A stretch of 64,000 bases of DNA, taken from NCBI RefSeq assembly GCF_013334205.1, contig NZ_CP054424.1, positions 3,430,001 through 3,494,000 of the forward strand, read 5' to 3'. Below are positions 56,569-60,925 of this stretch, piece after piece. Source of the DNA: Rhodoferax sp. BAB1. GTDB lineage: Bacteria > Pseudomonadota > Gammaproteobacteria > Burkholderiales > Burkholderiaceae_C. The notes under the pieces were generated by a model. It made no database searches, was not told the origin of the DNA, and worked only from the letters and a program-made list of their open reading frames with translations. Every line of letters starts with the position of its first letter. Within the stretch, counting starts at the first letter, position 1. A program made the translations under genes and the position numbers.

Positions 56569-59523
56569 TCAGCTCAGGTGCTTGCCAACGATGCCGGCCA
56601 GCTCGAACATGGTGACCTGGGCCTTGCCGAACACCGGCTTGAGCTTGGCGTCGGCATTGATGGCCCGCTTGTTCTGGGCGTCCTGCAGGCCCTGGGCCTT
56701 GATGTAGTCCCACAGCTTCTTGATCACCGCGGTGCGCGCCACCGGTTCGCTGCCGATCACGGCGGCCAGTTCGGCGCTGGGGGTCAGGCCGGCGGCTGCC
56801 TTGCGCGGCGCCTTGGCGGTCGTGGTTTTGGCGGCGCCTTTCTTGGCCGGCGCCTTTTTGGCGACGACCTTTTTCGCAGCGGTTTTCTTGGCGGCCGGGC
56901 CGCTCGTCTTGGCCGCCGCGCCTGCAGCGGATTTGGCCGCCGTCTTGCGCGGCGGGAACTTGGACGGCGCGAACTCGAAGGCGACCTTGTTGGCCTCCGC
57001 ACTCCAGGCCAGGAAGGCCTTGAAGGGACGGCGCGTGCGCATGGAGACGAACTTGTCGAGTAGGTCGGTCTTGCCCGTGCTCAGCAGCTTGGCCATCTGC
57101 TCGCGCTCGATGGGCTGCTGCAGGATGATCTGGCCGCTCTTGAAATCGCAGCTCGGCGTGGGCTGGGCCAGGGTGGGCACGGTTCTCTCGCAGACGTAGT
57201 TCTTGCCGTGCTCGTAGACCGCGCCACCGCATTTGGGGCAGGCGCCCAGCGACTCCTTGGCCGAGAAGTCCACCAGCTCGCCGGTTTCCTCCGCCTTATC
57301 GTCGCCGAAGTCGAATTCGAGCTTGTAGTTCTTCGTCTCCTCGTCGAACTTGATCACCATTTCGGCGGTGAAGGGCCAGCCGGCCTTGGAGCGGAAACCG
57401 TCCAGCGGGCCGATGCGCTTGTCGCGCAGGAATTGCTCCACTTCGGCCACCTCGAAGGTGCGGCCGGCCGGGGTCTTGCCAAAGGAGAAGCCGCAACCCT
57501 CGCCATCCCCCTTCTTGCCGGTGCAGGTGTAGCGACGGTAGTTTTCCTTGACCACGCCGCCGCAGTTCGGGCAGGGTGTGGTGAGCGTGGCGTAGTCGCC
57601 GGGCACGGTGTCGCGGTCGTACTCCTTGGCCTTCTTGACGATGTGCTCGGTCATGGCGGCGATCTCGCGCATGAATTCGGCACGCGACAGGCGGCCATGC
57701 TCCATCTCGGAGAGCTTGTATTCCCACTCGCCGGTCAGCTCGGGCTTGGAGAGCTCTTCTACGCCCAGGCCGCGCAGCAGGGTCATGAGCTGGGAGGCCT
57801 TGGCGGTGGGAATCAGCTCGCGCCCTTCGCGCAGCATGTACTTTTCGTTCAGCAGGCCTTCGATGATGGCCGCGCGCGTGGCGGGTGTGCCCAGGCCTTT
57901 CTCGTGCATGGCCTCACGCAGCTCGTCGTCCTCGATCAGCTTGCCGGCGCCTTCCATGGCGGAGAGCAGCGTGGCTTCCGAATAACGGGCCGGGGGCCGG
58001 GTCTTCAGCCCCTTGGGCTCGACGCTGTTGGTCTTGACCTTCTCGCCGGTCTGCACCGGCACCAGGGTCTTGCTGCTGCCTTCGCCCGGCGCCAGCTCGT
58101 CCTCGGCCTCCTTGCCGTAGATGGCCAGCCAGCCCGGCTTGACCAGCACCTTGCCTTCGCTCTTGAAGTTGTGGCCGGCGGCCGTGGTGATGCGGGTGGT
58201 CACCTGGTACTCGGCGCTGGGGAAAAAGATCGCCATGAAACGGCGTGCCACCAGGTCGTACAGCTTCTGCTCGGCGTCCGAGAGGCCGCTGGGCGCCTGC
58301 AGCGTGGGGATGATGGCAAAGTGGTCGCTGACCTTGGCGTTGTCGAAGATGCGTTTGTTGGGCTTGATGTAACCACCCTTGAGCGCGGTGGCCGCGTGCG
58401 GTGCCAGGTGCTTCATGCCGGAGTCGGCCAGCATGCCGAAGGTCTCCTTGGCCACGGCCAGATAGTCCTCGGGCAGGTGGCGTGAGTCGGTCCGCGGGTA
58501 GGTCAGGGCCTTGTGGCGCTCGTACAGGCTTTGCGCGATGGACAGCGTGGTCTTGGCCGAGAAGCCGAACTTGCCGTTGGCTTCGCGCTGCAGGCTGGTC
58601 AGGTCGAACAGCATGGGGGAGGCCTGGGTGCTGGGCTTGCTTTCCTCGCTGACGGTGGCGGTCTGGCCGCGCACGGCATCGGCTATGGCGGTGGCTTCCT
58701 GCTCGCTCCAGACGCGGTCAGCCCGCTTCTCGGCGTCGTCTTCGGTCTTCTTCCACTTCGGGTCGAACCATTTGCCCGCGTAGTCGCCGGCCTGGGCGCC
58801 GAAGCTGGCGTGCACCTCCCAGTAATTGCGGCTGATGAACTTGCGGATCTGCTCCTCGCGTTCCACCACCACGGCCAGCGTGGGCGTCTGCACCCTGCCC
58901 ACGGTGGTCAGGAAGAAGCCACCATCGCGCGAATTGAAGGCGGTCATGGCACGGGTGCCGTTGATGCCGACCAGCCAGTCGGCCTCGGAGCGGCTGCGCG
59001 CCGCATCGGCCAGGGGCAGCATCTGTTTGTCGCTGCGCAGCTTGTCGAAGCCGTCGCGTATGGCCTGGGGCGTCATGCTCTGCAGCCACAGGCGCGAGAC
59101 CGGTTTGCGTTGGGTCTTGGCGCGAGCTGGAGCGGCATCTTCGTTGCCGAAGGCGTACTGCTCGATCAGACGGAAGATCAACTCGCCCTCGCGGCCCGCG
59201 TCGCAGGCGTTGATCAGCTGGCCCACGTCCTTGCGCTTGGCCAGCTTGACCACGGCGTTCAGGCGGGTCTTGGTCTTGTCGACCGGCTTGAGGTCGAAAT
59301 GCGGCGGAATCACCGGCAGGTGGGCAAAGCTCCACTTGCCGCGTTTCACGTCGTACTGCTCGGGCGCCTGGATCTCCACCAGGTGGCCGACGGCACTCGT
59401 GACGACGTAGGTATCGCTCTCGAAATGCTCGTCATGTTTCTCGAATTTGCCGGCAGTGGGCGTGAGGGCGCGCACGATGTCTTGGGCGACCGAAGGCTTC
59501 TCAGCAATGACCAGGGTTTTCAT
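56569..59523 (-). CDS. topB: DNA topoisomerase III with C-terminal Lys/Ala-rich linker and SWIB domain
   Basis: A 984-residue type IA topoisomerase. The Toprim domain is at the N-terminus (LVIAEKPSVAQDIVRAL; metal site CDAGREGE, 107-114), the nucleophile is Y342 in ALTYPRTDSRHLP, and Cys clusters (CPNCGG...C near 650, CPKCGG...C near 750) form zinc ribbons. After about residue 845 comes a Lys/Ala/Pro-rich, histone-H1-like linker, then a roughly 75-residue SWIB/MDM2-type domain (GLTPSAELAAVIG...LWDYIKAQGLQDAQNKRAINADAKL). The SWIB fusion is known in some bacterial topoisomerases, including chlamydial ones. ATG 59523 is the conserved MKTLVIAEKPS start. Confidence 0.93.
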   Translation of the reverse strand: MKTLVIAEKPSVAQDIVRALTPTAGKFEKHDEHFESDTYVVTSAVGHLVEIQAPEQYDVKRGKWSFAHLPVIPPHFDLKPVDKTKTRLNAVVKLAKRKDVGQLINACDAGREGELIFRLIEQYAFGNEDAAPARAKTQRKPVSRLWLQSMTPQAIRDGFDKLRSDKQMLPLADAARSRSEADWLVGINGTRAMTAFNSRDGGFFLTTVGRVQTPTLAVVVEREEQIRKFISRNYWEVHASFGAQAGDYAGKWFDPKWKKTEDDAEKRADRVWSEQEATAIADAVRGQTATVSEESKPSTQASPMLFDLTSLQREANGKFGFSAKTTLSIAQSLYERHKALTYPRTDSRHLPEDYLAVAKETFGMLADSGMKHLAPHAATALKGGYIKPNKRIFDNAKVSDHFAIIPTLQAPSGLSDAEQKLYDLVARRFMAIFFPSAEYQVTTRITTAAGHNFKSEGKVLVKPGWLAIYGKEAEDELAPGEGSSKTLVPVQTGEKVKTNSVEPKGLKTRPPARYSEATLLSAMEGAGKLIEDDELREAMHEKGLGTPATRAAIIEGLLNEKYMLREGRELIPTAKASQLMTLLRGLGVEELSKPELTGEWEYKLSEMEHGRLSRAEFMREIAAMTEHIVKKAKEYDRDTVPGDYATLTTPCPNCGGVVKENYRRYTCTGKKGDGEGCGFSFGKTPAGRTFEVAEVEQFLRDKRIGPLDGFRSKAGWPFTAEMVIKFDEETKNYKLEFDFGDDKAEETGELVDFSAKESLGACPKCGGAVYEHGKNYVCERTVPTLAQPTPSCDFKSGQIILQQPIEREQMAKLLSTGKTDLLDKFVSMRTRRPFKAFLAWSAEANKVAFEFAPSKFPPRKTAAKSAAGAAAKTSGPAAKKTAAKKVVAKKAPAKKGAAKTTTAKAPRKAAAGLTPSAELAAVIGSEPVARTAVIKKLWDYIKAQGLQDAQNKRAINADAKLKPVFGKAQVTMFELAGIVGKHLS

Positions 59524-59543
59524 CTGACTACAATCCAGTTTCT

Positions 59544-59571
59544 CGCGCGCGCGTACGCGCACGCATACACG
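59544..59571. other. Alternating purine-pyrimidine tract (Z-DNA-prone) in the topB/SET divergent region
   Basis: Twenty-eight bases alternate strictly between pyrimidine and purine, mostly CG and CA steps, with further CG-rich blocks to about 59590. Such tracts adopt left-handed DNA under negative supercoiling. The tract lies 20 bases upstream of the topoisomerase start and within the promoter region shared with the SET gene. The alternation is direct; structure and function are inferred. Confidence 0.6.
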
Positions 59572-59621
59572 GGCGCGCCCACGCGCGCCCATACGAGTTC
59601 ACCTTACCAAATTTTTCAGCA

Positions 59622-60155
59622 GTGTCCAAGAATTCCGTTTCCGAGTCCGGCCGCCGTATCCAGACCCGCCGCTCCGGCGTCCATGGCAAGGGGGTCTTTG
59701 CCGTCCAGGACATCCCCAAGGGCGAAACCCTCATCGAGTACGTGGGCGAGATCATCAACTGGAAGGAGGCGCTGCGCCGCCACCCCCACGACCCCAAGGA
59801 TCCCAACCACACCTTCTACTTCCACGTCGATGAAGATCACGTCATCGACGCCAAGGTGGGCGGCAACTCCTCGCGCTGGATCAACCACTCCTGTGAGCCC
59901 AACTGCGAGGCCGACGAGGAAGAGGGCCGCGTCTTCATCAAGTCGCTGCGCAAGATCAAGGCGGGGGAGGAGCTCAACTACGATTACGGCCTCATCATCG
60001 ACGAGCCCTACACCAAGAAGCTCAAGGCGGAATACCCCTGCTGGTGCGGCAGCAAGCTCTGCCGCGGCACGCTGCTGGCACCGAAGGACGACGACAAGCC
60101 CAAGAAATCGAAGAAGTCCAAGAAGAAAAACAAGTCCAAGAGCGACAAGCGCTGA
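59622..60155 (+). CDS. SET-domain protein methyltransferase with post-SET and lysine-rich tail
   Basis: A 177-residue SET protein. Signatures are HGKGVFAVQDIPKGETLIEYVGE, RWINHSCEPNC (NHSCEPNC 88-95) and GEELNYDYG (117-123), followed by a post-SET cysteine cluster C140-W-C142...C147. The last 22 residues are Lys/Ser-rich (KKSKKSKKKNKSKSDKR). SET domains methylate protein lysines with SAM; bacterial substrates known include histone-like and ribosomal proteins. GTG start with weak ribosome-binding site. Divergent from the SWIB topoisomerase, and 11 bases upstream of birA. Confidence 0.92.
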   Translation: MSKNSVSESGRRIQTRRSGVHGKGVFAVQDIPKGETLIEYVGEIINWKEALRRHPHDPKDPNHTFYFHVDEDHVIDAKVGGNSSRWINHSCEPNCEADEEEGRVFIKSLRKIKAGEELNYDYGLIIDEPYTKKLKAEYPCWCGSKLCRGTLLAPKDDDKPKKSKKSKKKNKSKSDKR

Positions 60156-60166
60156 AGGAGTTCGCC

Positions 60167-60925
60167 ATGCTGCGTTGGCCGGCCGAAGCGATCTGGGAAG
60201 CGGTGGCGCCCACCCTGCCCGGTTTCACGGTCGAGGTGCTGCCGCAGGTGGATTCCACCAGCACCGAGCTGATGCGCCGCGCCCGTGCCGGCCGGCTGGA
60301 GCCGGTGCTGCTGGTGGCCGAAGCGCAGACCGCCGGCCGCGGCCGCCTCGGGCGGCCCTGGAGCAGCGGCGCACAGCCCGGGGACGTGCTGACCTTCTCC
60401 CTGGGCCTGCCCCTGCAGATGGCTGACTGGTCCGGCCTGTCGCTGGCCGTGGGCCTGAGTGTGGTGCAGAGCCTGCACCCGGACCTGCGGCTCAAGTGGC
60501 CCAACGATGTCTGGCTGGCCGACCGCAAGCTGGCCGGCATCCTGATCGAGACCACCCAGATCGACACGGCGCGCTACGCGGTCATTGGCGTGGGGATCAA
60601 CATCACGCCGCGGGACGCGACCGGGTTGGCCACGGCACCGGCCTGGCTGCAGGAGCTGGTGCCCGGCACCGACGCGCCGCAGGCCCTGCTGCAGGTGGCC
60701 GCGCCCCTGGTTCAGGCCGTGCAGCGTTTCGAGGTCCAGGGCTGGGCACCCTTCCAGTCCGCTTATGCAGCCAGGGATGTGCTGGCCGGCCGCGAGGTGA
60801 CCTTGAGCGACGGGACCATCGGCCAGGCCCGGGGCGTGGATGGCAGCGGCGCGCTGCTCGTGCATACTGCTGCCGGGCTGAAGAAAATCTCCAGTGCCGA
60901 AGTCAGTGTCCGCCCCCTGAACTGA
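60167..60925 (+). CDS. birA: BirA, biotin-protein ligase (no HTH domain)
   Basis: A 252-residue ligase that attaches biotin to the acetyl-CoA carboxylase carrier protein. TAGRGRLGRPWSS is the biotinyl-AMP-forming loop, KWPNDVWL the catalytic segment, KLAGILIET and GVGINI typical. The chain lacks the N-terminal winged helix of E. coli BirA, so it does not repress biotin genes. The start is ATG 60167 after AAGGAG. Confidence 0.94.
   Translation: MLRWPAEAIWEAVAPTLPGFTVEVLPQVDSTSTELMRRARAGRLEPVLLVAEAQTAGRGRLGRPWSSGAQPGDVLTFSLGLPLQMADWSGLSLAVGLSVVQSLHPDLRLKWPNDVWLADRKLAGILIETTQIDTARYAVIGVGINITPRDATGLATAPAWLQELVPGTDAPQALLQVAAPLVQAVQRFEVQGWAPFQSAYAARDVLAGREVTLSDGTIGQARGVDGSGALLVHTAAGLKKISSAEVSVRPLN

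Follow-up and report, generated by a model that had tools for sequence, protein, structure and literature searches.

The locus

The window analysed here is a stretch of 64,000 nucleotides from Rhodoferax sp. BAB1 (contig NZ_CP054424.1, positions 3,430,001 to 3,494,000 of the forward strand). Within it, we focused on two divergently oriented genes: topB, encoding a topoisomerase III that carries an H1-like linker and a SWIB domain, and a gene for a SET-domain protein (hereafter SET), a predicted lysine methyltransferase. The features of the locus, in window coordinates, are as follows:

56569..59523, minus strand: topB, DNA topoisomerase III with H1-like linker and SWIB domain, 984 amino acids (aa), equivalog NF011313/PRK14724
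56785..56943, minus strand: Lys/Ala/Pro-rich, H1-like linker of TopB (residues 861-913), by direct reading
56575..56784, minus strand: SWIB domain of TopB (residues 914-983; PF02201, 3.5e-24, 84.8 bits, cut-off 25)
59622..60155, plus strand: SET-domain protein lysine methyltransferase (predicted), 177 aa, GTG start, PF00856
60039..60062, plus strand: post-SET cysteines C140, C142 and C147, 99% conserved in 183 sequences
60084..60152, plus strand: Lys-rich C-terminal tail of SET, of low confidence in the structural model and lineage-specific
59524..59621, no strand: divergent intergenic region, 98 bp, from the sequence
60167..60925, plus strand: birA-like biotin--protein ligase (TIGR00121 birA_ligase, 1e-44, on a longer frame)

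TopB matched the NCBIfam model PRK14724 (NF011313, topoisomerase III, 988 positions) along its whole length (residues 1-984/984) with 1951 bits at a cut-off of 1088, and it contains the Pfam domains Toprim, Topoisom_bac, Toprim_Crpt and SWIB, the place of the last being recovered independently by a SWIB search of the whole genome. Its core matches a solved topoisomerase III (1d6m_A, 2.1e-92). The model of the unfused enzyme, PRK08173, gave 1482 bits over residues 2-900, and the protein is not the topoisomerase I/SWI fusion PRK06319 (188.1 bits, cut-off 868). By homology translation starts at 59523 (MKTLVIAEKPS); the mechanical start of the open reading frame lies further upstream, at 59592. 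Lys-rich tails are present in TopB orthologues with and without the SWIB fusion. A histone-H3-like K.PRK motif, found in 47 of 77 fused linkers, was dropped from consideration because it arises too easily in a stretch rich in Lys, Ala, Pro and Arg. In one orthologue (L144, genome G396) the linker is Arg-rich and un-H1-like while the downstream SWIB domain is intact, as if the frame had shifted and then returned.

In the SET protein, PF00856 (residues 22-123, 9.8e-26, 90.7 bits, cut-off 22.4) is the sole Pfam domain, and among proteins of solved structure human KMT2A/MLL1 is the nearest in sequence (1.7e-26). Across the 183 SET sequences compared (from the family and the order), H21, G22, G24, N88, H89 and C91 are conserved at 100% (rounded value); conservation is 99% for Y122 and the post-SET cysteines, 93% for Y120 and 77% for S90. 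The active-site residues are thus intact, if the NHSC motif, the catalytic Tyr and the post-SET cysteines have the functions that we assume for them; C140, C142 and C147 are presumably zinc cysteines. An AlphaFold model built from 38 sequences had a mean predicted local distance difference test (pLDDT) score of 81.5, with values <50 at residues 1-8 and 158-177. Its top Foldseek match was MLL1 (2w5z_A, E 3.7e-14, probability 1.00, template modelling score 0.62/0.61); MLL SET domains were the best matches, and NSD, SETD2 and others were also found among the best 50 of 399 structure matches (E <= 0.001). The closest named relatives come from a Burkholderiales metagenome genome (98%) and Curvibacter sp. 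PAE-UM (96%). More distant relatives (<60% identity) were noted in 49 plasmid records (e.g. NZ_CP014580.1), of which 29 belong to Paraburkholderia and 12 to Caballeronia.

The initial annotation had read the locus as a topoisomerase III with a Lys/Ala-rich, H1-like linker and a SWIB domain, divergent from a SET plus post-SET protein with a Lys-rich tail of its own, and each of these elements is borne out by the above results. It had also named the SET tail among the possible targets of the enzyme. As a general role this does not hold, because the tail is lineage-specific: it is long and Lys-rich in just 24 of 125 readable orthologues, while 75 of the 125 end <=12 residues past the CRG motif, and self-methylation in that sense was therefore rejected. 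Chlamydial NUE does automethylate (PMC3980110), and the tail encoded in the window is Lys-rich; even so, methylation of its own tail is a very unlikely main role of this SET.

Gene order in the family

The starts of topB and SET lie 98 bp apart. One weak sigma-70-like match was found between 59300 and 60300; it reads in the direction of SET, spans 59507-59534 and overlaps topB in part (9/12 consensus positions, shuffle mean 0.1). The conservation of this arrangement was examined in 200 genomes of the window's own family by matches for SET, SWIB and the TopB N-terminus, which were found in 187, 198 and 194 genomes, respectively. Among the matches listed for both SET and TopB (150 rows each, with 122 genomes common to both lists), the two genes are adjacent and divergent in 119/122 genomes, with a median of 156 bp (range 93-721) between the matches. 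In two of the three exceptions SET and TopB are on different contigs, and in the third they are 8 kb apart. Twenty further SET-bearing genomes had TopB but not SET among the listed matches; 12 of these were fetched, and SET is adjacent to TopB in all 12.

We also fetched 131 family SET loci, which overlap in part with the 122 genomes and include 80 named loci, the nearest relatives of the window SET. The TopB start is <=1 kb from SET in 125 of them; five of the other six have SET near a contig end on the TopB side, while the remaining locus is the one with the 8-kb distance. Of the fetched loci, 91 measure at least 10.9 kb. Among these, birA was found in 91, TopB in 90, the GAPDH gene in 35 and LivK in 6, and conservation of gene order is therefore not the default in this family. 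The family-level scores, the near-invariant residues, the confident model of the SET core and the conserved order confirm that the pair of SET and TopB-SWIB observed in the window is real and well beyond chance.

The initial annotation had singled out the pairing of SET with a SWIB-fused topoisomerase. Taking a frame of at least 960 aa as the fused size, 87 of the 119 adjacent TopBs are that long and 32 are shorter, and unfused TopBs stand beside SET in the fetched loci; the pairing is therefore independent of the fusion, which was rejected as its reason. In two genomes (G334 and G432, loci L192 and L193) SET occupies the same place beside TopB-SWIB but forms a long branch of its own in the SET tree; here one SET may have replaced another while the position was retained.

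The frequency of SET bears on whether the enzyme could be a secreted effector acting on histones of a eukaryotic host, like Legionella RomA and LegAS4, Burkholderia BtSET or Chlamydia NUE. Bacterial SET effectors are on record, and BtSET of Burkholderia thailandensis, LegAS4 and RomA are reported to act on host histone H3 (PMC3980110). The window SET domain is nearest to eukaryotic histone methyltransferases and has a weak match to the LegAS4/AnkI effector family NF043024. However, this match (45.8 bits) falls below the cut-off of 550, SET is fixed beside topB and birA, and its named relatives are, by their titles, mostly from water, soil and groundwater genera and from metagenome genomes. Judged by family scores, gene order and distribution, an effector is very unlikely, chiefly because SET is present in 187/200 family genomes, a frequency that speaks for a resident role.

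TopB is not the only constant neighbour. In 129 of the 131 fetched loci birA lies 3' of SET and is read in the same direction (no birA match was obtained in the remaining two), so that birA is as conserved a SET neighbour as TopB, and SET and birA possibly form an operon. This is one of the points in favour of the main rival explanation, in which SET is a resident lysine methyltransferase with an unrelated substrate (a ribosomal protein, a translation factor, the biotin ligase or a biotin enzyme), and its position beside TopB reflects inherited order or shared regulation. We regard it as a serious contender with a little over a third of our confidence, and the evidence from other families and from SET-less genomes bears on it as well.

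Other families of the order

In a survey of 250 genomes of the order (other families are labelled by f-numbers), SET was matched in 62 and SWIB in 93. SWIB-containing frames of >900 aa, the size of the TopB fusion, occurred only in the window's own family, in 7/7 of its genomes. TopB was not found beside SET in 23 SET loci of other families (L011-L033), whose flanks reached up to 1.5 kb. Of the genomes from other families, 41 had a strong SET match (at least 100 bits); 37 of these also had a TopB match, and by coordinates the two genes lie within about 17 kb in 14 of the 37.

In four genomes, all of f6, SET and TopB are placed tail to tail at <=0.4 kb. In the SET tree the f6 proteins branch apart from the main clade of the window's family, and this adjacency therefore looks separate; it counts against an unrelated substrate. 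Looser linkage was seen in 10 genomes of five families, at 1.6 kb in f20 (one genome) and at 4.6-17 kb in f4 (four), f32 (three), f8 (one) and f10 (one), where two of the three f32 distances assume a circular contig. Such spacing resembles an old shared neighbourhood and is in keeping with an unrelated substrate. In two more f32 genomes the distance is about 32 and about 88 kb. Against any linkage stand G056 (f8), with about 3 Mb between SET and TopB on one contig, and f3, f13 and f47, with the genes on different contigs of fragmented assemblies, and these cases likewise suit the unrelated-substrate explanation. The initial annotation took rare adjacency elsewhere as a mark against its idea. 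Within the family the two genes are not rarely adjacent; outside it, close adjacency was seen in the four f6 genomes.

Natural losses of SET

Thirteen family genomes from nine genera lack SET, and 10 of them are at least 90% complete. TopB was fetched for eight. In the seven with flanking sequence, TopB and birA are still divergent, their matches lie 172-232 bp apart and SET is absent; the eighth locus begins at a contig end. With the two flanking genes in their usual arrangement, SET was cleanly lost, and as the TopB-birA order survives this loss, SET is not needed for it. The persistence of the TopB-birA order argues against explaining the position of SET by an unrelated substrate, as do tail changes that go with SET loss (see below; uncorrected for relatedness). 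On a TopB tree built from 75 of the 125 usable rows the SET-less label requires four changes, at least two of them forced, and the SET-less rows fall in two separate parts. If the ancestor of the family carried SET, the gene has therefore been lost more than once.

H1-like proteins in the same genome

The 3.82-Mb contig that includes the window gave a single SET match and two SWIB matches, TopB and one stand-alone protein. Two matches to the H1-like model HC2 were over the cut-off. One is the stand-alone H1-SWIB protein itself (160 aa, L182:1507-1989), in which a Lys/Ala repeat is followed by SWIB and which resembles a twin of the TopB C-terminus. The other is a Lys/Ala repeat frame of 154 aa (L183:1492-1956), located beside a gene that we take to be a ribonucleotide reductase subunit. 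The gene set of the Chlamydiae type (SET, stand-alone SWIB, topoisomerase-SWIB and an H1-like protein) is therefore complete in this genome.

Proposed role of SET and the Lys-Lys dyads

We propose that SET would methylate lysines in those tails of nucleoid proteins that are Lys/Ala-rich and H1-like, the candidate substrates being the tail of the neighbouring TopB, the stand-alone H1-SWIB protein and other H1-like proteins where present. Methylation of the tails could tune their binding to DNA and, through it, the residence of topoisomerase III and the compaction of the nucleoid. What the analysis shows is the identity of the genes, the intact active-site residues, the conserved divergent pair and the clean losses of SET; that the enzyme is active, what it acts on, how DNA binding responds and whether regulation is involved are inferred. 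The initial annotation had suggested the TopB linker or a histone-like protein as targets of SET, and this is plausible. Methylation of Lys-rich, H1-like nucleoid-protein tails by a resident enzyme is the role of SET that we tentatively prefer, at somewhat less than even confidence, while the more specific idea that the TopB tail is itself a direct substrate appears rather doubtful.

The tails were compared between genomes with and without SET. In the family, Lys-Lys dyads preceded by Ala or Pro ([AP]KK) occur in 103 of 116 TopB tails of SET-bearing genomes vs 2 of 8 of SET-less genomes (Fisher 1.4e-4; as with all P values of such comparisons here, relatedness is ignored). With the nearest named relatives of the window excluded, the counts are 37/48 and 2/8 (P 0.007). 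A similar comparison was made for the N-terminal part of H1-SWIB, with 27 SET-bearing genomes hand-picked from the listed rows rather than drawn at random: internal Lys-Lys dyads are present in 23/27 SET-bearing vs 5/13 SET-less genomes, at 7.83 vs 1.0 dyads per 100 residues. HC2 matches over the cut-off were found in 12/28 SET-bearing and 0/13 SET-less genomes (17/28 and 2/13 when weak ones are included).

Outside the family, the TopB tails of 94 of 110 loci were compared (f1, f23, f44 and unfinished ends were dropped, and f6 contributed no tails), with [AP]KK in 20/26 tails from genomes with SET and 30/68 from those without; among SET-less tails at G+C of at least 0.57 it occurs in 15/41. 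The median tail length is 64.5 residues in SET-bearing and 29.5 in SET-less genomes, but for length as for [AP]KK the families differ. The Lys fraction of the tail showed no difference (0.203 with SET vs 0.204 without) and was rejected as a marker of SET outside the family. The TopBs of f23 (L267, L277, L287 and L291) and of f44 (L240, L248 and L250) end in a different conserved stretch and not in a plain Lys-rich tail.

Taken at face value, the smaller number of Lys-Lys dyads in H1-like tails of SET-less genomes is a weak comparative hint at tail methylation, and a number of observations weigh against it. When the SET-less genomes are collapsed to five genera, the TopB counts become 2/5 vs 37/48 (P 0.11), and only four SET-less changes, two of them forced, underlie the contrast. 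The SET-less genomes are small (1.6-3.1 Mb). Of the SET-bearing TopB tails in the family, 13/116 have no [AP]KK, among them L155, L177 and L192 from the same clades as SET-less genomes; the H1-SWIB of L354, SET-bearing and again from these clades, has no dyads, and that of G411, SET-bearing within the main loss clade, has zero internal ones. Conversely, TopB tails rich in Lys-Lys exist outside the family in genomes without SET (G179, G240), f10 being a family with such genomes. The equal Lys fractions given above belong here too. The HC2 model is driven by composition: its listed matches include some tails of TopB and some H1-SWIB proteins, and frames of >650 aa account for two of the 12 matches over the cut-off. 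Genes can also stay adjacent without a common function, birA being an equally conserved neighbour. Lastly, results on methylation of Chlamydia Hc1 are discordant (PMC6426960).

Several of these points, namely the few independent losses (2-4), the small SET-less genomes with P 0.11 for collapsed genera, the dyad-free H1-SWIB of G411 and the equal Lys fraction at the order level, favour the explanation that the dyad difference is an effect of lineage, genome size or composition unrelated to SET, which is compatible with any other reading of SET function. On the other hand, the H1-SWIB loci of the two groups have widely overlapping G+C, the difference has the same direction in TopB, in H1-SWIB and outside the family, and the SET-less rows lie in two separate parts of the tree. 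On balance, we lean slightly towards such an effect as the source of the difference. The fullest version of tail methylation would be a module in which SET methylates Lys-Lys dyads in the tails of TopB and of H1-SWIB or other H1-like proteins, these dyads decay after SET loss as unmethylated repeats become useless, and methylation of the tail determines the activity of topoisomerase III, whether or not SWIB is fused to it; as a whole this seems improbable.

Relation to known systems

A set of SET, SWIB and topoisomerase proteins is on record for the Chlamydiae, and in Waddlia the members of the SWIB, topoisomerase I-SWIB and SET set are Wcw_0377, Wcw_1713 and Wcw_0084 (PMC6426960). The Rhodoferax genome is similar in combining a topoisomerase-SWIB fusion, a stand-alone SWIB, SET and Lys-rich H1-like proteins. 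Unlike in the Chlamydiae, the topoisomerase is of type III (PRK14724) and not the TopA-SWIB of PRK06319, the stand-alone SWIB bears an H1-like Lys/Ala repeat, and the SET and topoisomerase genes are paired, including unfused pairs. The latter involve TopBs of the PRK08173 kind, which have the same core and Lys-bearing tails, lack SWIB and are paired with SET in the family too. The system is thus of a kind known from the Chlamydiae, and it is a variant by its type III topoisomerase, the fixed pair, the independence of the SWIB fusion, the second, tail-to-tail arrangement and the clean natural deletions.

Other prokaryotic SET proteins offer partial parallels. According to PMC3980110, cpnSET of Chlamydophila pneumoniae methylates Hc1 and NUE does not (Murata 2007), and Go1-SET of Methanosarcina mazei methylates MC1-alpha, likely at Lys37, in vitro (Manzur and Zhou 2005). 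Like cpnSET, which occurs together with Hc1 and Hc2, the window SET is a bacterial protein whose cell also contains Lys-rich proteins of the H1-like kind; Hc1 is the reported substrate in the former case, while the substrates of the window SET are candidates. The account of cpnSET in section 6 of PMC3980110 mentions no pairing of its gene with a TopB gene. Go1-SET is likewise a prokaryotic SET protein, with an endogenous chromosomal protein as substrate, as is proposed for the window SET, but it is archaeal. BtSET, LegAS4 and RomA have the SET domain class in common with the window SET.

Whether bacteria direct SET enzymes at the nucleoid of their own cell, as opposed to the histones of a host, is an unsettled issue, with discordant Hc1 data in the Chlamydiae (PMC6426960). 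The fixed SET-topB pair, the natural deletions of SET and the named isolates would make this question testable outside an obligate pathogen, and bacteria of the window's family may be tagging their own DNA-packing proteins.

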